Source: a virus. From it: 21,536 nt of DNA. Positions 7,566 through 14,860 of the stretch are shown piece by piece. How positions within the stretch are numbered: position 1 is the first letter of the stretch; each line of letters begins with the position of its first letter. The stretch spans positions 1 to 21,536 of IMG/VR virus record IMGVR_UViG_3300029309_000396, one strand, 5' to 3'. The position numbers and the translations under genes were made by a program. A model generated the notes under the pieces. That model was not told the DNA's origin, did no database searches, and was given only the letters and a program-made list of their open reading frames with translations.

Positions 7566-7772
7566 TTAATCCCTCGTTCTATGGTCTCTACGATACTGTA
7601 CATACTCTTTAACAAGACTTGTAAAGTTATCTTCGTACCATTCTTTATAAGGCTTCTGCTCATCCTTCCACCTTAAACACTCATCACAATACTCTACATA
7701 CTTTCTACCTATAAAAAAAGTTATAGCTTTGTACTTTTTAGATTTCTTAATTTTTAAATTTCTTATATCCAT
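7566..7772 (-). CDS. Hypothetical protein, 68 aa
   Basis: I do not recognise this basic, lysine- and tyrosine-rich small protein (FIGRKYVEYCDECLRWKDEQ in the middle, with one CDEC pair). It is the first gene downstream of the strong promoter at 7824-7852, followed by the Arg/Gly-rich microprotein 2 nt later. The CDEC pair alone is not enough to claim a zinc site. Confidence 0.7.
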   Translation of the reverse strand: MDIRNLKIKKSKKYKAITFFIGRKYVEYCDECLRWKDEQKPYKEWYEDNFTSLVKEYVQYRRDHRTRD

Positions 7773-7856: not shown

Positions 7857-7887
7857 AAAAAAAATGAGCAGTTTTATATCATGCTCA
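7857..7887 (-). terminator. Rho-independent-type terminator; hairpin family copy 1
   Basis: On the minus strand TGAGCA, an 11-nt loop and TGCTCA are followed directly by eight T residues, the form of an intrinsic terminator, although the stem is short (6 bp). It is one of four related hairpins (others at 7926-7952, 12245-12270 and 13523-13549). It sits just upstream of the promoter at 7824-7852. Confidence 0.6.
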
Positions 7888-7925
7888 GGATATCATTTAA
7901 TATGGAGATTTAAATGAAAAATATT

Positions 7926-7952
7926 TAAGCAGTTTAACATCATGCTTAGGAT
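7926..7952 (-). repeat. Intergenic hairpin family copy 2
   Basis: On the minus strand TAAGCA, an 11-nt loop (TGATGTTAAAC) and TGCTTA are preceded by ATCC and followed by AATATTTTT. Relative to copy 1 both sides of the stem changed together (G-C to A-T), which supports a paired structure. It could be a weak terminator working in tandem with copy 1, about 40 nt further on. Confidence 0.6.
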
Positions 7953-7996
7953 GTCATAACTCAAAACGGAAAAAATTATGAAACTGTTTAAACGCT

Positions 7997-8230
7997 CTAA
8001 CTATATTTATAATTATCTTTATTATATTCTAGTCCAAGTACATTTACTAACTGCCATTTTATATTCTGTAAATTTCTAGCGTCACTTAAAAACATATCTT
8101 GACACTCAAATAAAGTATCTAAAGCTGTATCAAGATTGTTTACTGAATCAACTAGAGCTTGATACTGTTCGTTAGAAAACTCTATTGACACTTTTGTTTT
8201 TAATTTTTTTACTGTTACATCTTTTTTCAT
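7997..8230 (-). CDS. Hypothetical protein, 77 aa
   Basis: I do not recognise this protein. A basic N-terminus (MKKDVTVKKLKTK) precedes a probably helical body with alternating hydrophobic residues (ALVDSVNNLDTALDTLF), which could form a coiled coil or helical hairpin. Its start overlaps the upstream stop by 4 nt (ATGA). It is the last gene before the tandem hairpins at 7857-7952, and a GTTTAAAC lies just past its stop codon (7986-7993). Confidence 0.7.
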   Translation of the reverse strand: MKKDVTVKKLKTKVSIEFSNEQYQALVDSVNNLDTALDTLFECQDMFLSDARNLQNIKWQLVNVLGLEYNKDNYKYS

Positions 8231-8454
8231 TTTACTTCTCCATCATAATGCATTGATATTATCTCTGCTATCTTTTCATAAGTACAGTCTATGATTTCAT
8301 TATCTTTGAATCCTCTATCCTCATCATAGTCCCCACTCATTAAATCGTTATGTACATCTTCGACAAATCTATCTGTAGTTTTGTCTGATAACTTTGATGC
8401 TATCTCATTTGCTACTGATAAGTTCTCATGTATCTTATCTTGCCAAGTCTGCAT
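8227..8454 (-). CDS. Hypothetical acidic protein, 75 aa
   Basis: Unrecognised, helical and acidic (SGDYDEDRGFKDNEI). The start has GAGGAAG upstream and overlaps the preceding gene by 20 nt; the stop overlaps the next gene by 4 nt. It belongs to the long string of small early-region genes. Confidence 0.7.
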   Translation of the reverse strand: MQTWQDKIHENLSVANEIASKLSDKTTDRFVEDVHNDLMSGDYDEDRGFKDNEIIDCTYEKIAEIISMHYDGEVK

Positions 8455-8782
8455 TTTCTTCCTCCATAAGTTGTTGTTCTTCTAAACATTCTCTGTCATA
8501 TTCTAAATCATAATAGTCAAATTCTTCAAAGCATTCATCTTCATAAGTTACTTTGTCTGACCATTTCCAATCTGTATCCCATAAGGATATTCCATCTGTC
8601 TTTGAGTTGTCAACTATGACTGTATCATCTTTTAAAGTTATGATTAAGTCAGTCCACTTACCTACTTGAATTTGTTTAATATCATCTACATTAAACTTAT
8701 AACTCTCTGCAATATTTTCTATATCCCAATGTAAATAGGTATTATATTTTGCACGCACTGTTTTTACTTTACTGTAAGACAT
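8435..8782 (-). CDS. Hypothetical acidic protein, 115 aa
   Basis: Unrecognised. The start at 8782 (MSYSKVKTVRAKY) is preferred over an in-frame ATG further upstream because GGAGGA stands at the right distance and the upstream stretch is covered by another small gene. The C-terminal third is strikingly acidic (DECFEEFDYYDLEYDRECLEE), a composition common in DNA-mimic or protein-binding early phage proteins. That parallel is inference. Confidence 0.7.
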   Translation of the reverse strand: MSYSKVKTVRAKYNTYLHWDIENIAESYKFNVDDIKQIQVGKWTDLIITLKDDTVIVDNSKTDGISLWDTDWKWSDKVTYEDECFEEFDYYDLEYDRECLEEQQLMEEENADLAR

Positions 8783-8783
8783 T

Positions 8784-8957
8784 TTATATTTCCTCCAAGT
8801 CTTCATTTTCAATGTACTCTGAGATATAAGATACATCTACCTTTCTGCCTACTGTAAATAATTTAATACTTCCATCTTCGCTTCGAAGTGGATTACCCTC
8901 TTTATCCTCTTTACAAAACTGTACATCCCATAATTTAGGTACATATTTTTTACCCAT
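8784..8957 (-). CDS. Hypothetical protein, 57 aa
   Basis: A short gene starting at the ATG at 8957 (MGKKYVPKLWDVQFCKED) with AGAGG upstream and ending one base before the next start codon. The C-terminus is acidic (EYIENEDLEEI). It fills the gap between the 64-aa and 115-aa genes exactly, with a good ribosome binding site, which is why I call it. Function is unknown. Confidence 0.65.
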   Translation of the reverse strand: MGKKYVPKLWDVQFCKEDKEGNPLRSEDGSIKLFTVGRKVDVSYISEYIENEDLEEI

Positions 8958-8958
8958 T

Positions 8959-9153
8959 CTATTCCTCTCTAATTATTTTAAAAGTTTTTAGTTGTTGTAT
9001 TTCATCCCACTTTTTTAAAGGTATTCTTTTCCAATGCGGAGCATGAGCTTCTTTAATCTTTACCCACTTATAACCAACTGTACCGACCTTAAACATTCTA
9101 TGTCCTGCGGGTACATTCCGTAACTCGTAAGCATTGTAGAAACTAATCAACAT
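8959..9153 (-). CDS. Hypothetical basic protein, 64 aa
   Basis: Unrecognised, rich in aromatic and basic residues (GYKWVKIKEAHAPHWKRIPLKKWDEI), probably a compact beta fold. Its start is embedded in the end of the preceding gene (11-nt overlap), with GGAA upstream. Nucleic acid binding would fit the composition but is not shown. Confidence 0.65.
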   Translation of the reverse strand: MLISFYNAYELRNVPAGHRMFKVGTVGYKWVKIKEAHAPHWKRIPLKKWDEIQQLKTFKIIREE

Positions 9154-9289
9154 CTTTTATTTCCTTTGGTAAATCTTCCCATCTATAAAACTTTTTAGTT
9201 TCAGCATCCCAAAACAAACCCTTATAAATAGGTTCATCATCAACAGGAATACTACCTATCGTTACTCTCGGTTTATAATTTTTTGCCAT
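9143..9289 (-). CDS. Hypothetical protein, 48 aa
   Basis: A short gene with a strong AAGGAG site five to seven bases before the ATG at 9289. It encodes MAKNYKPRVTIGSIPVDDEP and a C-terminal FWDAETKKFYRWEDLPKEIK. It overlaps the next gene by 11 nt. The ribosome binding site and fit between neighbours support it; no function is recognised. Confidence 0.65.
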   Translation of the reverse strand: MAKNYKPRVTIGSIPVDDEPIYKGLFWDAETKKFYRWEDLPKEIKDVD

Positions 9290-9300
9290 ATGTTCTCTCC

Positions 9301-9498
9301 TTAATTTTTATTTGGAATTAATCCCCTTCTATCAATTTCAATCATCATATCTAACATATCTGCATGAATGTGAGGTTTTGAATCTTTTGCACATTTCCAA
9401 AAATAATCTAATAAATCTTGATTAGAACAATCTTGAATCTCAAAATCTTCTACCCAAACAGGATTGTTAAATTTTATAGTATGGTTTTTAAAAGTCAT
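9301..9498 (-). CDS. Hypothetical protein, 65 aa
   Basis: Unrecognised. The start at 9498 (MTFKNHTIKFNNPVW) is preferred to upstream in-frame starts because GGAG precedes it at normal spacing. The body is acidic and ends DMMIEIDRRGLIPNKN. It heads a short gene string and is preceded by a 183-bp gene-free stretch. Confidence 0.65.
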   Translation of the reverse strand: MTFKNHTIKFNNPVWVEDFEIQDCSNQDLLDYFWKCAKDSKPHIHADMLDMMIEIDRRGLIPNKN

Positions 9499-9681
9499 TG
9501 TTTTCTCCATAATAATAAGTGCAGGGCGGTGTTTATAGAGTGCTTGTAAACCCACTCAACAGGAACACATTTAAATTCCTTCCTGTAGTTATCCCTTATC
9601 AGAATACCCTACACTATTTAATAATAAGATTGTCTCATCTCAGAAACAAAAGTCAATACTATATAACTATAAGTTATATGC
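9499..9681 (-). promoter_or_regulatory. Gene-free leader with a possible promoter and two inverted repeats
   Basis: The minus strand has TTGAGT (9559-9554), 16 bp, then TATAAA (9537-9532), a fair sigma-70 match about 35 bp before the start codon at 9498. ACAGGAA ... TTCCTGT (about 9561-9588) and GAGTG ... CACTC can form hairpins across it. One minus-strand frame (about 9492-9605) is open and protein-like but has no start codon, so a decayed gene is possible. Confidence 0.35.
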
Positions 9682-9954
9682 TTATTCATTTAAGTTTATT
9701 AATTTATATTCTCCTCTTTCAATTTTACCAACTACATCAGATTTCTTTTCTCCTAAAAATAAATCCCTACATTTGACAACATGCTCATTAATCCATCCGT
9801 ACTTGTCATCAATAAAGACTTCATCCTCTGTAATCTTTACAATTATTTTATCTTCACTCTTGTAGTAAGTAGCATCATCATCAACCATGATAAAATCATT
9901 CTCTAACTTTTTACCACCTAAATTATACATATTTCTTTCTACTAATTTTTTCAT
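9682..9954 (-). CDS. Hypothetical protein, 90 aa
   Basis: Unrecognised. The start at 9954 (MKKLVERNMYNLGG) overlaps the upstream stop (ATGA); a further upstream in-frame start would sit inside the previous gene without a binding site. The protein is alternately acidic and basic and probably beta-rich (DKIIVKITEDEVFIDDKYGW). A GTTTAAAC (9960-9967) lies 6 nt before the start codon. Confidence 0.65.
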   Translation of the reverse strand: MKKLVERNMYNLGGKKLENDFIMVDDDATYYKSEDKIIVKITEDEVFIDDKYGWINEHVVKCRDLFLGEKKSDVVGKIERGEYKLINLNE

Positions 9955-10352
9955 AAGCTGTTTAAACGCTCCTCCCAATCTTCCATAATATTATTAATAT
10001 CTATAATCTTTTCTAAAGAAAGACCATAATCCCAAACTCTTTCAATGCCATCATTCCAATTAGTCCATCTTATAAAAGATACATTCTTGTATCCTTTTTG
10101 AGTGACCCACTCTCCATCTTCGTTTTGATAAGAGTTCCATTCATCCTCAGGCAAATCTTTATCATACTTCAAAATAAATATATCAGATGAATCCGTAGCA
10201 TTAACTCCTGCGTACTCATCATCCCTTGTAGCATGACATAGTTCTGGGTCATTAGTTATGTCCTGTAAAACATTACCTTCACATTCAATAAAATAATGAT
10301 ACCCTTTGTTTTTAGTTTCTTCTAGAATCTCTTCTAATAAATGTCTAACCAT
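9951..10352 (-). CDS. Hypothetical acidic protein, 133 aa
   Basis: Unrecognised. An acidic protein with many Trp, Asp and Glu residues (SFIRWTNWNDGIERVWDYG; N-terminal helix HLLEEILEETKNKG). GGAGGTG precedes the ATG at 10352. A strong promoter (10377-10405) inside the preceding gene would drive it directly, so it may be expressed at a higher level or different time than its upstream neighbours. Confidence 0.7.
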   Translation of the reverse strand: MVRHLLEEILEETKNKGYHYFIECEGNVLQDITNDPELCHATRDDEYAGVNATDSSDIFILKYDKDLPEDEWNSYQNEDGEWVTQKGYKNVSFIRWTNWNDGIERVWDYGLSLEKIIDINNIMEDWEERLNSL

Positions 10353-10361
10353 GACACCTCC

Positions 10362-10499
10362 TTAGTAATCGTTATCATTGTATTTTACCACTCCCTGCTT
10401 GTCAAACCTTTTTGTTTCTTGTGGTTGTATAAAAAACAATGTCAATATTGCAAAGCTAAAAACAACTATGCAAAACAATAATAAAACTCCATTCGTCAT
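10362..10499 (-). CDS. Single-span membrane microprotein, 45 aa
   Basis: A short gene whose first 26 residues, VLLLFCIVVFSFAILTLFF with few polar positions, form one clear transmembrane helix. A short polar tail (QPQETKRFDKQGVVKYNDNDY) follows. The start overlaps the stop of the zinc-ribbon gene and has GGAGG upstream. It would sit in the inner membrane. Small membrane proteins in early phage regions often modify host envelope or exclusion functions; which applies here is unknown. The 3' part of the gene also carries the promoter at 10377-10405. Confidence 0.65.
   Translation of the reverse strand: MTNGVLLLFCIVVFSFAILTLFFIQPQETKRFDKQGVVKYNDNDY
10377..10405 (-). promoter_or_regulatory. Sigma-70 promoter inside the membrane microprotein gene
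   Basis: The minus strand has a perfect TTGACA (10405-10400), 17 bp, and TACAAT (10382-10377, five of six). Transcription would start near 10370, giving a leader of about 18 nt with GGAGG before the start at 10352. It lies within coding sequence, so chance is possible, but hexamers, spacing and position agree. Confidence 0.6.
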
Positions 10500-10666
10500 A
10501 CTACCTCCTCGCCTTGCATAAAGGCTTTATAAATATTACTTTCCGGTTCTAAATATATTGTTTTTTCTGTATCATCATTCCCACAAAAAGGACATACAGG
10601 TATAAATTTATTCTTCTCGCCATAGTGTTTATGACATTTAAGACATTCAACTACTTGTAGATACAT
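10496..10666 (-). CDS. Zinc-ribbon microprotein, 56 aa
   Basis: A short gene encoding CLKC (residues 8-11) and CPFC (about 25-28), a four-cysteine zinc-ribbon arrangement, followed by an acidic, tyrosine-containing tail. A strong GGAGG site stands before the ATG at 10666. It overlaps the upstream gene by 20 nt and the membrane microprotein by 4 nt. Such small ribbons bind nucleic acid or host transcription proteins in other phages; the target here is unknown. Confidence 0.7.
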   Translation of the reverse strand: MYLQVVECLKCHKHYGEKNKFIPVCPFCGNDDTEKTIYLEPESNIYKAFMQGEEVV

Positions 10667-10850
10667 CTGACACCTCCTCCTCTATATTGCTACATTGCCA
10701 ATCTTTTGAAGCATCATAACCAATCGCCCATTTCAATTCTTCTTTAGCTAAGTCATGTGCTTCATCTTCGTTCTTTGCTTCTACAACATAATCGTATTGT
10801 AAAGTTTCAAATGGTACGAAAGATACCTTATATTGTGTTGGTTTACTCAT
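10647..10850 (-). CDS. Hypothetical protein, 67 aa
   Basis: A small alpha/beta protein: a beta strand pair (YKVSFVPFETLQYDYVVEA) is followed by a helix (NEDEAHDLAKEELKWA). This strand-strand-helix layout with an 'A-x-x-x-EA-x-x-x-A' helix occurs in several phage and plasmid families of unknown function. It overlaps both neighbours (8 and 20 nt). Confidence 0.7.
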   Translation of the reverse strand: MSKPTQYKVSFVPFETLQYDYVVEAKNEDEAHDLAKEELKWAIGYDASKDWQCSNIEEEVSDVSTSS

Positions 10851-11085
10851 GCTTCCTCCTCTCTAGTAGTTTTAATCTTCGACATGATTCCCATTTACTA
10901 GCGTAGCCACATAATGCCATACCTACACCGCTTATGAAATCTTCAACTGTAACTCCTTCTCGCAGTTTCATCTCGCCTTCTTCGTAGTCTAAGTCACATA
11001 AGTCGTAGATAATATCTTCTGTTTCACTTAGTATTTGTTTAGCTTTAACTCCTTCTTCAATAGCTTGTTCGTCTATATATATCAT
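10843..11085 (-). CDS. Hypothetical acidic protein, 80 aa
   Basis: Unrecognised. Acidic and helical in the first two thirds (SETEDIIYDLCDLDYEEGEMKL), with a short basic C-terminus (RRLKLLERRKHE). It is coupled to its neighbours by a 4-nt overlap upstream and an 8-nt overlap downstream. Confidence 0.7.
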   Translation of the reverse strand: MIYIDEQAIEEGVKAKQILSETEDIIYDLCDLDYEEGEMKLREGVTVEDFISGVGMALCGYASKWESCRRLKLLERRKHE

Positions 11086-11324
11086 ATTATTTCCTCCTCA
11101 GCATCTATGAATTGTTGACAAGCCCTATTCATATCATCCCATTGTTTCGTGATGCTACCTAGTTTATCCATCAAAAAAGATACTCCTTGATAGACTGTGC
11201 CTGTGTCCTCATATGCTTTTACCTGACATTTAAGTTCTTCTACTATCATCTTAGAAAACATTTTATCAATTATTTCCTTTGCTTTAGTAGCTTCCTCTTT
11301 AGTCATTACTATTTCTTTAACCAT
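11082..11324 (-). CDS. Hypothetical helical protein, 80 aa
   Basis: Unrecognised and almost wholly helical by composition (TKEEATKAKEIIDKMF; ITKQWDDMNRACQQF). The start at 11324 has GGAG 6 nt upstream, and just above that lie GTTTAAAC (11334-11341) and a stable hairpin (11342-11368), which could influence its translation. Confidence 0.7.
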   Translation of the reverse strand: MVKEIVMTKEEATKAKEIIDKMFSKMIVEELKCQVKAYEDTGTVYQGVSFLMDKLGSITKQWDDMNRACQQFIDAEEEII

Positions 11325-11341
11325 TATTACTCCGTTTAAAC

Positions 11342-11368
11342 GCTCCCTATTTAATTAGGTAAGGGAGC
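11342..11368. repeat. Intercistronic inverted repeat (hairpin)
   Basis: GCTCCCT and AGGGAGC (7 bp, four G-C or C-G pairs among the first five) flank a 13-nt A+T-rich loop. It lies between two minus-strand genes, immediately upstream of CGTTTAAACG and the ribosome binding site at about 11331-11334. No T tract follows on the minus strand, so it is more likely a processing or translation-control hairpin than a terminator. Confidence 0.55.
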
Positions 11369-11384
11369 TAAACCTTAGCCCTCT

Positions 11385-11573
11385 TTACTCAAGCTCCTCA
11401 GCTATCAAAGTTACTTTGTAACCTAGCTCCTTTGCCCTTTGTAAAGTTTTAAGTGAGATAGTTTTCCCACCGCCAACCTCTCTAATAAAATCAGCTAAGG
11501 TATTATGGGGATAATAAAAATCAGAACCATAATAATTTTTCTTAACTATTTTTATTTCGTTGTCGATAATCAT
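11385..11573 (-). CDS. Hypothetical protein, 62 aa
   Basis: Unrecognised. The C-terminal half (ISLKTLQRAKELGYKVTLIAEELE) reads like a helix-strand-helix unit; the N-terminal half is strand-rich and basic. The GGGKT in the middle is not a complete Walker A motif. It overlaps the SprT-like gene by 4 nt (ATGA), so it is translated in step with it. Confidence 0.65.
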   Translation of the reverse strand: MIIDNEIKIVKKNYYGSDFYYPHNTLADFIREVGGGKTISLKTLQRAKELGYKVTLIAEELE

Positions 11574-12208
11574 TCTTCCTCCTTAACTTCTGGCTCTAGC
11601 GATTCCATACCGCAAGAGTTACAAACATAGTTAATCATCAAGTCTATGTTCTTTCTTGATGTTCTGTAACTAAACTCACATTCAGTACAAGCTACTTTTA
11701 TCATTCTTGTAGTCTGTTTCTTGATACCTCCTGTGCTTACCTCTGCATGTGGATACTTACCAATACTCTTAATGATACCTTCAAGAATACCTTTCAACCA
11801 ATCCCCTGCAGTAGTTGCAGTCATTTTACCTTCAAGCCCAATCGCCTTAGCAATCTTTCTAAAAGTTCCTTTGTGTCCACTCTTGCAGTCATCAATCGCA
11901 TGAATCATTTCATGAGCTAATATATCAAGAACCCTCATAGAATCTTCAACAACAGGCGAGACAAATATCTCATTAATATTGCTCTTGCTTGATTCCCTAT
12001 TAAAGCACACTCCCAAAGTTTTATTCTTTGTTCTCTTGCCTCCGCTAGGTGGAAACCCACAAGATATTTTTATATCTGATGGAACATCTATTTCTTTTCC
12101 CACTTTAGAAGTAACTTCAGAGAGTTTAAACACTTTTGAAGTTAGTTCATTTTTTGCTAGAGATAACCATTGTTCCCTAGTCAAAGATTTGTTTTCTAAT
12201 AGTTTCAT
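11570..12208 (-). CDS. SprT-like zinc metalloprotease
   Basis: Predicted zinc-dependent peptidase of the SprT/SPRTN type, 212 aa. The catalytic HEMIH (residues 99-103) sits in LDILAHEMIHAIDD, with a further conserved GHKGTFRKIAKAIGLEG that supplies the third ligand region. The C-terminus has a zinc ribbon, CTEC near residue 170 and CNSC near residue 195. SPRTN proteases cut proteins crosslinked to DNA; the phage role is not established. GGAGGA precedes the start at 12208, and hairpin family copy 3 lies in the leader. It contains GTTTAAAC at 12124-12131. Confidence 0.88.
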   Translation of the reverse strand: MKLLENKSLTREQWLSLAKNELTSKVFKLSEVTSKVGKEIDVPSDIKISCGFPPSGGKRTKNKTLGVCFNRESSKSNINEIFVSPVVEDSMRVLDILAHEMIHAIDDCKSGHKGTFRKIAKAIGLEGKMTATTAGDWLKGILEGIIKSIGKYPHAEVSTGGIKKQTTRMIKVACTECEFSYRTSRKNIDLMINYVCNSCGMESLEPEVKEEE

Positions 12209-12244
12209 TCATCCTCCATATTTCATATATTAAGAAACTCAATA

Positions 12245-12270
12245 TGAGCAGTTTAAACTCTTACTCAGGA
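12245..12270 (-). repeat. Intergenic hairpin family copy 3
   Basis: On the minus strand TGAGTA, an 11-nt loop (AGAGTTTAAAC) and TGCTCA are preceded by TTCC. The inner C of copy 1 is a T here, which still pairs with G as a wobble. The loop contains a complete GTTTAAAC (12251-12258). No T tract follows. It sits about 37 nt before the start codon of the SprT-like gene. Confidence 0.55.
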
Positions 12271-12310
12271 ATTTAAAATAACCTATAACTTTTGATTATA
12301 AGCTTATTAC

Positions 12311-12676
12311 TTAGTAAAGAAAATCAAATACACTCTCATGCATCAATGTATTTTTAGTAGCCTCCTTTAACATTTTAAATTTTATTTCCTTAGCTTCATC
12401 CGTTAGGGTATAGCTAAGCCCTGTCCTAACAACTAACATATCATCTAAATCAGATATTCTTTCTTCAATTCTATCTGTCATAACTTTAGTTTTGCTTACC
12501 TCATTATATAAATTATTAGATACATCATACTTATCTAGCTCAACACTAGCGTCAGTTAATACAGTCGCTTTCATTTCTAATTTTATTAACTCCTGCCAGA
12601 GATTGCTAACCTCCTCAGTTATAGCTTGAGTGGTTAACTTCTCAGGGTTAGTCGTTTCTAAATTTAAATTAATCAT
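12311..12676 (-). CDS. Hypothetical helical protein, 121 aa
   Basis: Unrecognised. Long amphipathic stretches (NLWQELIKLEMKATVLTDASV; DRIEERISDLDDML) suggest a coiled-coil or helical bundle. It is flanked by a 102-bp gene-free leader downstream and a 22-bp gap upstream with an AGGAGAA binding site before the ATG. Confidence 0.7.
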   Translation of the reverse strand: MINLNLETTNPEKLTTQAITEEVSNLWQELIKLEMKATVLTDASVELDKYDVSNNLYNEVSKTKVMTDRIEERISDLDDMLVVRTGLSYTLTDEAKEIKFKMLKEATKNTLMHESVFDFLY

Positions 12677-12698
12677 TTTTATTTTCTCCTTTATTTTA

Positions 12699-12920
12699 TT
12701 AATCGTCTAAATGTTCCATAAAATCATCAATATGTTCTTTAGCTTCTTTAAAACTATAGTGCCAAACATCCATACCAGAATCAATTAAGTCCTCATCTTC
12801 AGATTCAATAACCCAAATATCTTTATCATAACTAGAATCTGTTAAATCATTTTCAAAATTATGATAAGTAAATTCTAAAAGGTTACCTTTCCTTATTTCA
12901 AAGTTTTTATATTTAGCCAT
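12699..12920 (-). CDS. Hypothetical acidic protein, 73 aa
   Basis: Unrecognised and strongly acidic (DKDIWVIESEDEDLIDSGMD; C-terminal EHIDDFMEHLDD). GGAGG precedes the start at 12920. It lies directly downstream of the ArdA gene, and the acidity would suit a second DNA-mimic or inhibitor, but nothing more specific can be said. Confidence 0.7.
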   Translation of the reverse strand: MAKYKNFEIRKGNLLEFTYHNFENDLTDSSYDKDIWVIESEDEDLIDSGMDVWHYSFKEAKEHIDDFMEHLDD

Positions 12921-12936
12921 TGTTAATACCTCCTTT

Positions 12937-13446
12937 TTAATTTTTAAATATTGCCACTTGATAATTTGGTAAATCTAGAGCCATGTATTCATATTGTAAA
13001 TCGTTGGCAAACTTTTCATAATCAAAATAACTAGCTAGAAAATCTCTATCCAGAGAATTACCTATCAATATTTCATCTGCATAATCGTCAGAATATTCTT
13101 GAAAGCTATCATAAATACCTAAGTAATTATCTTCAGCTTCATCTACCATATAATCTTCATAATCTCTATAGCAGTTTTCCGCATAAGCTATGATGGCATC
13201 ATTATCTAAATGACTGTCTTCCATAGCTTGAACAAAATTAAAAAGCTTTTCAAGGTCTGGATACTCTGTATCTAAACTTATTCCCTCAAAGTCATGCACC
13301 GCAACCTCATCAGCGTGTTCCGTTACATCTTGAATAGCCCATCTAAATTTATCAAAGTCTTCATAGTCGCTAGGTGTTAGCCAACCGCCGACCATTCGAC
13401 CTTGATTATAAGCCTCTAAAGAAGCTACATATATTTTTATTTTCAT
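12937..13446 (-). CDS. ardA: ArdA-type antirestriction protein
   Basis: Mimics B-form DNA and blocks type I restriction-modification enzymes of the host, protecting incoming phage DNA. The 169-aa protein matches the family in length (about 165-170) and layout: the opening IYVASLEAYNQGRMVGGWL, the central VAVHDFEGI, the NYLGIYDSFQEYSDDYADE block and the closing YFDYEKFANDLQYEY. It is very acidic throughout, as expected for a DNA mimic. It sits near the start of the early arm, where a restriction countermeasure is needed first. Its leader (13447-13563) contains several predicted hairpins. Confidence 0.92.
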   Translation of the reverse strand: MKIKIYVASLEAYNQGRMVGGWLTPSDYEDFDKFRWAIQDVTEHADEVAVHDFEGISLDTEYPDLEKLFNFVQAMEDSHLDNDAIIAYAENCYRDYEDYMVDEAEDNYLGIYDSFQEYSDDYADEILIGNSLDRDFLASYFDYEKFANDLQYEYMALDLPNYQVAIFKN

Positions 13447-13563
13447 AATTAAATACTCCGTTTTGTTTTCTGTTTCGCATATCCTCTCGGATGCTCGTCA
13501 GCATGGTTAATTCCATGTACAGAGAGCAGTTTTAAATCTTGCTCAGGATTTTATTTATCCTCC
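13447..13563 (-). promoter_or_regulatory. Structured leader of ardA with four short hairpins
   Basis: Reading on the minus strand, hairpin family copy 4 (13549-13523) is followed by CATGG/CCATG around 6 nt (13517-13502), ATGCT/AGCAT around 4 nt (13504-13491) and ATCC-GAGA-GGAT, a GNRA-type tetraloop near 13492-13481. GGAG precedes the ardA start. No promoter hexamers are evident. One minus-strand frame is open and protein-like but lacks a start codon. Confidence 0.45.
13523..13549 (-). repeat. Intergenic hairpin family copy 4
   Basis: On the minus strand TGAGCA, an 11-nt loop (AGATTTAAAAC) and TGCTCT, preceded by ATCC. Five of six stem pairs hold; the outermost is mismatched. It has the same loop length as the other three copies and no T tract. 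Confidence 0.55.
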
Positions 13564-13719
13564 TTAGATTACGTTAACTATGATAACTGAAGCGATACAA
13601 AGTAGCAAAGCAAAAGGTTTAAGAATAAACCAATTAAACCAAGACAACCTGTCAACGCTTGTTATTGTTCTAATGTCATTGAGAAATAAATCCCACTCTC
13701 TTCTAATAAATTTAATCAT
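13564..13719 (-). CDS. Single-span membrane microprotein, 51 aa
   Basis: A short gene starting at the ATG at 13719 with a strong AAGGAGA site. The first 30 residues are polar and basic (MIKFIRREWDLFLNDIRTIT), then WFILKPFALLLCIASVIIVN forms one transmembrane helix running to the C-terminus. It would be a tail-anchored inner-membrane protein. One copy of the hairpin/pseudoknot element (13736-13773) ends immediately before its ribosome binding site. Function is unknown; early membrane microproteins in phages are often exclusion or lysis-timing factors. Confidence 0.7.
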   Translation of the reverse strand: MIKFIRREWDLFLNDIRTITSVDRLSWFNWFILKPFALLLCIASVIIVNVI

Positions 13720-13735
13720 TTTTTAAATCTCCTTT

Positions 13736-13773
13736 GAAGAGCTTTTATAATTGGGTAGCTCTTCATAAACCCT
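13736..13773 (-). promoter_or_regulatory. Candidate cis-regulatory RNA (hairpin/pseudoknot), copy 1
   Basis: On the minus strand AGGGTTTAT is followed by the stem GAAGAGCT / AGCTCTTC (8 bp) around a 13-nt loop, ACCCAATTATAAA. The loop's ACCC can pair with the upstream GGGT to form a compact H-type pseudoknot. The 3' arm ends 2 nt before the AAGGAG site of the 51-aa membrane protein, so folding could control its translation. A second copy with compensatory stem changes lies at 14118-14155. Confidence 0.65.
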
Positions 13774-13786
13774 TGTGAAGTTAATC

Positions 13787-14101: not shown

Positions 14102-14117
14102 AATATAAGTCTCCATT

Positions 14118-14155
14118 GAGAAGCTTTTAAAATTGGGTAGCTTCTCATAAACCCT
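14118..14155 (-). promoter_or_regulatory. Candidate cis-regulatory RNA (hairpin/pseudoknot), copy 2
   Basis: On the minus strand AGGGTTTAT, stem GAGAAGCT / AGCTTCTC (8 bp), loop ACCCAATTTTAAA (13 nt). Compared with copy 1, two stem positions differ on each arm in a compensatory way, while the loop's ACCC and the upstream GGGT are unchanged. It ends about 4 nt before the GGAG of the 104-aa gene. GTTTAAAC (14156-14163) adjoins its 5' side. Confidence 0.65.
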
Positions 14156-14596: not shown

Positions 14597-14705
14597 TTTG
14601 AATATTTAGCGTTGCCGTCCATGCGTTCATTATACAGAAAAACACCAGAGATTTTATAACTGTGAGTTATATTGTTATAGCGTGAAGTTATAATTAAAAT
14701 CTTTA

Positions 14706-14737
14706 GAAGTTTATGAAGTTTATGAAGTTTATGAAGT
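14706..14737 (+). repeat. Tandem 9-bp repeats (iteron-like)
   Basis: GAAGTTTAT is repeated three times without a gap (14706-14732) and followed by a partial fourth unit, GAAGT. Related TTTATGAAG and TTTATAAAG words continue to about 14760. Tandem A+T-rich direct repeats next to DnaA boxes are typical of origins. Confidence 0.7.
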
Positions 14738-14860
14738 CTTTTATAAAGTCCTTTATGAAGTGTTAGATATACCTACTACTTTATAAGTGCATTCTCTCTG
14801 ATAGTTAACCAGACTGAATAACTTTAAAAGGGGCTTTTTATTTTTTGAATCTTGCAAAGA

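Follow-up and report, generated by a model that had tools for sequence, protein, structure and literature searches.

A compact RNA pseudoknot family lying behind stop codons and before tRNAs in phage genomes

Four intergenic pseudoknots in a marine phage fragment

The stretch of DNA analysed here (21,536 nucleotides (nt), positions 1–21,536 of IMG/VR record IMGVR_UViG_3300029309_000396; hereafter the window) is a 21.5-kb linear fragment from a marine phage, in which a sequence-only reading had pointed to a family of four hairpins on the minus strand. Early genes (DNA polymerase A, primase-helicase, Gp2.5-like SSB, SprT-like and ArdA) run leftward and packaging genes rightward, the two blocks meeting, and near DNA matches of the window are limited to the pelagiphages HTVC115P, HTVC104P, HTVC103P and HTVC033P (portal gene) and to roseophage CRP-345. 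All four copies are present on the minus strand where they had been placed, each between open reading frames (ORFs), and copies 2 and 1 stand in tandem, copy 2 being 32 nt upstream of copy 1 (Table 1).

The element is a compact H-type RNA pseudoknot of about 28 nt, whose two helices are both supported by covariation. Stem 1 (S1, with strands S1a and S1b) has 4–5 base pairs (bp) and stem 2 (S2, with strands S2a and S2b) has 6 bp; they are joined by a one-nucleotide loop 1 (L1), which is C, by a single junction nucleotide and by an A-rich loop 3 (L3) that ends in AAAC. The parts follow each other in the order S1a-C-S2a-N-S1b-NAAAC-S2b, and the consensus is NNNN-C-TGRNCA-N-N'N'N'N'-NNAAAC-TGNYCA. 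The stem details given in the sequence-only reading were borne out (copy 1 has TGAGCA/TGCTCA, copy 2 the compensatory TAAGCA/TGCTTA and copy 3 a single G-T wobble, and copy 4 has lost the outer pair), but the simple hairpin with a conserved loop that it proposed gives way to a pseudoknot. The flank that had been noted as 'WTCC' is the 5′ strand of a second helix, and the 5′ part of the supposedly unpaired 11-nt loop, NGANNN, is the 3′ strand of that helix; the invariance ascribed to the whole loop holds for its NAAAC end, together with the single C.

Both helices covary and the loops are nearly invariant

A structural descriptor that demands C in L1, AAAC in L3, the three inner S1 pairs and at least five S2 pairs found exactly the four copies in the window, whereas 400 first-order Markov resamples averaged 0.11 matches and never gave more than 1. 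A plain-hairpin pattern allowing up to 3 mismatches, which misses the second helix, stayed near chance (14 matches in the window versus 8.5 expected).

We then scanned IMG/VR with patterns in which parts of the motif were left free, so that pairing in those parts is a real test; the figures from these scans are among the matches listed. When three S1 positions were free, pair 3 was formed in 119 of 119 copies, by four pair types. With S1 and the junction wholly free, pairs 1–3 were formed in 130/130, 130/130 and 129/130 copies, compared with 123, 62 and 62 when partners were re-dealt, and the pair types varied (CG126/GC3/TA1 for pair 1, AT65/TA56/CG7/GC2 for pair 2 and GC66/CG51/AT10/TG2 for pair 3). 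Pair 4 was present in 101 of these 130 copies and pair 5 in 29, below chance expectation, indicating that S1 is usually 4 bp long. Two middle S2 positions, when freed, were both paired in 111 of 111 copies, one position being G-C only and the other GC42, AT36, TA25, CG7 or GT1, and a second such scan gave 40 of 40. The loops hardly varied: a free L1 was C in 221 of 222 copies and a free L3 was NAAAC in 207 of 210.

In a 73-row alignment, 97.4% of cells were paired, versus 76.5% after shuffling and 23–35% after sliding (23–28% with the partner slid by one column), and both sides had changed in 150 cells versus 43 ± 5 in shuffles. In the relative L498 the orthologue of copy 3 has its S2 wobble replaced by C-G, and copy 4 recurs in identical form. 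The covariation check in related phages that the sequence-only reading had called for thus confirmed a conserved element at the RNA level. By analogy with other small pseudoknots with A-rich loops, triple interactions involving the invariant C and NAAAC probably lock the knot.

The element is widespread in phages and absent from Rfam

The first IMG/VR pattern scan returned at least 120 stretches. Applied to 4.39 Mb of fetched loci, the descriptor gave at least 705 non-redundant copies in 436 loci, versus 17 in Markov controls, and 150 of the 436 loci held two or more copies. Carriers include the Synechococcus phages S-EIVl and S-RIM4 and the Nostoc phage NMeng1 among cyanobacterial viruses; roseophage SIO1, Celeribacter P12053L, Lentibacter ICBM1-3 and Paracoccus ParKuw1; the Lactobacillus phages phig1e and phiEF-1.1; the Staphylococcus phages 80, 88 and phiETA3; and Mycobacterium Labelle, Corynebacterium phi673, Moorella MTATph1, the thermophilic D6E, the crAss-like cr7_1 and Microviridae. 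The hosts include Staphylococcus, Lactobacillus, cyanobacteria, roseobacters, Mycobacterium and gut bacteria, and also E. coli through probable copies in Chaseviridae: the copies in Chaseviridae of E. coli and Erwinia have one G-A opposition in S1 and are counted as probable. In two of these phages, Escherichia phage flopper and phiEcoM-GJ1, the probable pseudoknot (~1460–1570) lies inside a poorly annotated region of ~1.2 kb, flanked by complementary segments (GTAACCTAA...TTAGGTTGC) and next to a tRNA-Arg call, which suggests that it may be embedded in a larger structured RNA. Weak BLAST matches without both helices (for example, in Prevotella Lak) were not counted as copies, and neither was a pattern match in pelagiphage HTVC115P, which also lacks them.

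A genome collection of 257 Gb and 85,000 species contained 19 exact matches to the first pattern, mostly on contigs of metagenome-assembled genomes, indicating that the element is essentially viral. Because five of the six IMG/VR motif scans give lower bounds and many well-known phages are carriers, the element, which occurs in many phages unrelated to one another, seems to rank with the most common structured RNAs found in phages. Rfam 15 gave no match in the window and none in 5 short motif-bearing loci at E<=1, and in 11 further, tRNA-bearing loci it recovered tRNAs only; the window segment with copies 1 and 2 gave sub-threshold matches only, of which csRNA (27.6 bits versus a cut-off of 57) was dismissed. 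No description of the element was found in the open-access full-text literature, a search that excludes subscription papers and outside preprints. Although H-type pseudoknots are a known fold class, the RNA family is new, as are its distribution and its placement.

Copies sit behind stop codons and before tRNAs

Genes around the copies were called with a codon-usage gene finder, which placed 4 copies at convergent and 8 at divergent junctions; the 36 apparently convergent and 13 apparently divergent copies given by another gene finder were due to mis-called antisense ORFs, as reading of the flanks showed. Eleven of 425 copies overlap a gene, and 392 of the remaining 414 come after a coding sequence (CDS) of their own strand. 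The spacing between the stop codon and the 5-nt S1a shows a sharp lower edge, with no copy at 0–2 nt, 1 at 3 nt, 57 at 4 nt, 32 at 5 nt, 27 at 6 nt and 24 at 7 nt, and the same edge was seen in 223 copies selected by no search pattern (15 at 4 nt, 16 at 5 nt and none below 4). When a stop codon occupies the ribosomal A site, a spacing of 4 nt places the first S1 pair just outside the leading edge of the ribosome. Window copies 4, 3 and 2, at 12, 37 and 42 nt behind the stops of the 51-aa, 121-aa and 77-aa ORFs, belong to the tail of this distribution, not to its mode.

Such an edge would be expected of a ribosome barrier or insulator, in which the knot abuts the terminating ribosome and keeps post-termination or read-through ribosomes out of the next start region or a folding tRNA. 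A co-directional cistron or tRNA does lie downstream nearly always, and one motif of plant viruses has been found to stall scanning ribosomes as well as Xrn1 (PMC10520033). Such a barrier is, on balance, unlikely, although it is the rival that we take most seriously: about one-third of the copies are more than 15 nt behind the stop, and the enrichment of U-runs after the knot (see below) is left unexplained.

A pseudoknot 5–9 nt downstream of a stop codon might also stimulate read-through of the stop or –1 frameshifting, and this spacing matches that of known recoding pseudoknots. The frame past the stop is, however, no more open than the others (median 7 versus 6.5 codons), an in-frame stop precedes the end of the knot in 104 of 166 copies, slippery heptamers occur in 6 of 166, the spacing is spread over the reading frames and the downstream neighbour is often a tRNA. 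Having neither an open frame beyond the stop nor a slippery heptamer at the right spacing, the element falls outside the class of recoding pseudoknots, and a recoding signal is extremely improbable.

Sorted by junction (gaps of up to 400 nt), 227 copies lie between two CDSs and 63 between a CDS and a tRNA, with 2 at convergent, 1 at divergent, 1 at antisense and 1 at tRNA-to-CDS junctions, whereas all junctions of 35–400 nt in the loci number 1722 (CDS to CDS), 95 (CDS to tRNA), 44 (convergent) and 76 (divergent). A copy is thus present in 66% of CDS-to-tRNA gaps versus 13% of CDS-to-CDS gaps (odds ratio 13, p=3e-30), and divergent gaps are disfavoured (1/76, p=6e-4); as the motif was the reason for fetching the loci, the numbers allow a comparison between junction classes but are not absolute frequencies. 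The gap to the downstream tRNA is 0–15 nt in 62 of 64 tRNA-proximal copies. In gaps of 120 nt or more, 67 of 217 copies are within 15 nt of the upstream stop and 24 of 217 within 45 nt of the downstream start, and in gaps of 150–1000 nt the copy is clearly nearer the upstream gene in 138 of 189 cases. Because copies stay by the upstream stop in long gaps, the element is mainly one of the 3′ untranslated region (UTR). Nearly all downstream starts are at least about 19 nt from the knot.

The neighbouring genes share no pathway, since their functions are heterogeneous both upstream (n=92; DUF932 in 23, Hsp20 in 5, and SSB, RNR and HNH among others) and downstream (PcfJ-like, clamp loader and others). 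The most frequent immediate upstream neighbour encodes a ~338-aa DUF932 protein (phrog_1221; L017, L029, L336 and about 20 other loci). Copies in front of unrelated genes and tRNAs argue against gene-specific attenuation. Of the roles that the sequence-only reading had offered with the downstream genes in mind, processing, as the marking of a 3′ boundary, fits the placement, whereas attenuation and regulator binding do not.

A protein- or ligand-binding cis-regulator, either a translational operator of the gene 32 type or a small riboswitch, might nevertheless use the strictly conserved L1 C, L3 AAAC and S2 ends as a recognition site. The T2/T4 gene 32 pseudoknot has a one-nucleotide L1 over an S2 of 6–7 bp. 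Its stems are coaxial and its role is autoregulatory (PMC3014915), and the phage element, likewise a small H-type pseudoknot in phage mRNA, recalls its geometry. The gene 32 knot, however, is bound by gp32 and is located in a 5′ region, 67 nt ahead of the gene to which it belongs, whereas the present element occurs behind the stops of many unrelated genes, in several copies per genome and with a fixed NAAAC loop and TGRNCA/TGNYCA stem. Its anchoring to the upstream stop and near absence from true 5′ leaders (the single divergent junction above) set it apart from such operators, and preQ1-I and other small riboswitches were rejected because they gave no Rfam match and the flanking genes are mutually unrelated. 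We therefore regard a cis-regulator as improbable.

A U-run (TTTT in the next 10 nt) follows 86 of 425 copies, that is, 20% versus a background of 4.2% (5-fold, p=8e-33), and the first 8 nt past the knot are G-poor. This enrichment would suit a transcription element, be it a terminator, a pause site or an RNA-based antiterminator acting on RNA polymerase. In the window a U-tract is found after copy 1 alone, the U8 that had already been noticed, and copy 1 with this tract may double as an intrinsic terminator; the claim that the family is more than a set of terminators therefore stood. Overall, 80% of copies have no U-run, so that the element does not conform to the class of intrinsic terminators (a G+C-rich stem, then a U-tract); the next start is often just 20–30 nt away, leaving no room for a promoter; T-runs are equally frequent before short and long downstream gaps (p=0.66); and the tie to the stop codon, exact to the nucleotide, points to a placement that takes account of translation. 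An action on RNA polymerase as the general function is hence as doubtful as a cis-regulator.

Comparison with known RNA elements

The coremin exonuclease-resistant RNA (xrRNA) of plant viruses (beet necrotic yellow vein virus (BNYVV) RNA3 and others) occurs both in 3′ UTRs and between genes, is a block to Xrn1 as well as to scanning ribosomes, and consists of a small hairpin whose loop is YGAD or YGNNAD, the spacer GUUAAACUAC and a second hairpin; the paper that describes it mentions neither phage nor bacterium (PMC10520033). Its short motif GUCCGAAGACGUUAAACUAC shares GUCC....GACGUUAAACU with a common variant of the phage element, ACGTC. Coremin is, however, a hairpin followed by a second hairpin, whereas the phage element is a covarying two-stem pseudoknot, in which the would-be loop C-TGRNCA-N pairs downstream as S2, L3 is NAAAC and the 5′ nucleotides are variable. 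It does not belong to coremin, and we take the resemblance as a lead for the idea of a roadblock, not as evidence of membership.

The same likeness would agree with an xrRNA-like element that shields the downstream mRNA or tRNA precursor from the 5′→3′ exonuclease RNase J, as would the conserved position upstream of scaffold and capsid genes in phages whose hosts have RNase J and the minimal distance of downstream starts from the knot. Probable copies in Chaseviridae infecting E. coli and Erwinia, hosts that have no RNase J, speak against it; in addition, the knot in long gaps is found at the upstream stop and not by the downstream start, and RNase P generates the 5′ ends of tRNAs in any case. 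Protection from the 5′ side is accordingly a minor candidate, though slightly less improbable than regulation or an effect on RNA polymerase.

Simple hairpins of the REP (repetitive extragenic palindromic) or terminator type also lie between genes, behind stop codons, and have been proposed as exonuclease barriers for bacterial mRNA 3′ ends; they are without the covarying second helix and invariant loop nucleotides of the phage element. The STAXI RNA motif (RF01728) is made of pseudoknots that are repeated and lie close to genes for SSB, integrase and antirestriction proteins (PMC2864571); it differs in its 153-position model, its tandem repeats and its frequent UUCG tetraloops, and even a cut-off of E<=10 yielded no STAXI match in the window. 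Theta ribozymes, which are like those of hepatitis delta virus (HDV), are found next to phage tRNAs, form a nested double pseudoknot, cleave themselves and have been proposed to process tRNA 3′ trailers (PMC10879173), whereas the pseudoknot described here is much smaller and is found 5′ of tRNAs. A self-cleaving ribozyme was rejected, as none of 11 loci gave an Rfam ribozyme match.

Other features of the window and its relatives

The genes that flank the four copies are given in Table 1.

Table 1. Pseudoknot copies in the window and the genes on either side of them
Feature	Position	Strand	Sequence, match or basis	Location
Pseudoknot copy 1	7865–7893	−	S1a 7889–7893 ATATC; L1 7888 C; S2a 7882–7887 TGAGCA; junction 7881 T; S1b 7876–7880 GATAT; L3 7871–7875 AAAAC; S2b 7865–7870 TGCTCA; read from sequence and descriptor match	
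U8 tract	7857–7864	−		Immediately 3′ of copy 1
Pseudoknot copy 2	7926–7954	−	S1 ACATC/GATGT; L1 C; S2 TAAGCA/TGCTTA; L3 TAAAC	
Pseudoknot copy 3	12245–12273	−	S1 AATTC/GAGTT (one G-U); L1 C; S2 TGAGTA/TGCTCA (one G-U); L3 TAAAC	Between 121-aa gene and SprT-like gene
Pseudoknot copy 4	13523–13551	−	S1 AAATC/GATTT; L1 C; S2 TGAGCA/TGCTCT (outer pair lost); L3 AAAAC	Before ardA
68-aa ORF	7566–7772	−	No Pfam or PHROG match	Downstream of copies 2 and 1
77-aa ORF	7997–8230	−	No Pfam or PHROG match	Upstream of copies 2 and 1
SprT-like protein gene	11570–12208	−	phrog_6361, 7e-37; Pfam SprT-like, 1.3e-5, just under cut-off	Downstream of copy 3
121-aa ORF	12311–12676	−	No Pfam or PHROG match	Upstream of copy 3
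ArdA antirestriction gene	12937–13446	−	PF07275, 2.9e-20	Downstream of copy 4
51-aa ORF	13564–13719	−		Upstream of copy 4

A second, different pseudoknot-like repeat lies between cistrons of the window at 13733–13773 and 14115–14155, on the minus strand. Its copies read GGGT-TTAT-GAAGAGCT-ACCC-AATTATAAA-AGCTCTTC and GGGT-TTAT-GAGAAGCT-ACCC-AATTTTAAA-AGCTTCTC, have an 8-bp S2 with compensatory changes between them and stand directly ahead of the Shine–Dalgarno sequence of the next gene; a viral-contig scan gave matches in L498 and L502 only. Behind the stop of the same 109-aa gene, three relatives carry the main pseudoknot family (L499:1069, L500:1255 and L501:5195, ~8 nt behind the stop) and the window carries the second repeat (13733–13786), as if the two were interchangeable at that site. 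In L500, sprT is the next gene after this knot.

The palindrome GTTTAAAC has 16 sites in the window versus 0.97 expected, a 16-fold excess (for example, at 7986, 9960, 11334 and 12251), and is also over-represented in the relatives L498–L501 (L500: 15 versus 0.43); it might be a site for a phage regulator, a primase or a modification enzyme. A DnaA-box-like 9-mer, TTATCCACA, lies a few tens of bases 3′ of the pseudoknot in one group of contigs (L043, L091, L095, L103 and others), and at least one occurs in 131 of 504 loci. Between the leftward and rightward gene blocks, at 14701–14745, the window has a short tandem repeat with a 9-nt unit, TTTATGAAG, possibly an origin or regulatory region.

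A candidate roadblock at the 3′ boundary of cistrons

The dsDNA and ssDNA (double- and single-stranded DNA) phages that carry the element infect hosts with different nucleases. 3′→5′ exonucleases are general among bacteria, E. coli has no RNase J, and RNase P must cut at the 5′ end of a tRNA. On these grounds, and from the nucleotide-precise placement, the co-transcribed RNA downstream, the preference for RNase P sites and the unstructured G-poor, often U-rich tail, we infer that the pseudoknot could be a mechanical roadblock on the RNA, marking off the upstream cistron at its 3′ boundary, most likely as an exonuclease-resistant 3′ end. This is the explanation that we favour, and we hold it tentatively, as possible rather than probable. 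The knot would form in a polycistronic phage transcript as near to the stop codon as is possible if the terminating ribosome is not to melt it. The long transcript would then be cut or ended downstream, by RNase P at a tRNA 5′ end, by an endonuclease or by termination at a U-run, and 3′→5′ exonucleases would trim it only as far as the pseudoknot, so that the upstream mRNA would be left with a defined and stable 3′ end just past the region that ribosomes need.

Several observations weigh against this explanation. Convergent gene ends, which would be expected to profit from a 3′ stabiliser, are not enriched (2/44), although ordinary terminator hairpins may serve there instead. In siphophages of Staphylococcus and Lactobacillus and of the Geobacillus type (D6E), the knot is found at a single syntenic position ahead of the scaffold and capsid genes; protection or insulation of the mRNA downstream would make at least equal sense there. 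The knot before sprT in L500 has a different upstream gene, so that here the association looks linked to the downstream gene. A ribosome barrier fits the data nearly as well as a roadblock to exonucleases, and both could coexist.

More broadly, the distribution and placement of the element lead us to propose, as something close to an even call, a universal RNA part of dsDNA and ssDNA phages of many bacterial phyla that would proof mRNA 3′ boundaries against host exonucleases, ribosomes or both. It would be a prokaryotic-virus counterpart of the xrRNAs of eukaryotic viruses, placed by selection behind the terminating ribosome and before tRNAs. If so, it would be one of the smallest natural RNA elements known, and its placement yields sharp predictions on how phages protect and partition polycistronic mRNAs and phage tRNA transcripts. 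Should the block to exonucleases or ribosomes hold true, the pseudoknot would offer a portable part of 28 nt for stabilising or insulating cistrons.

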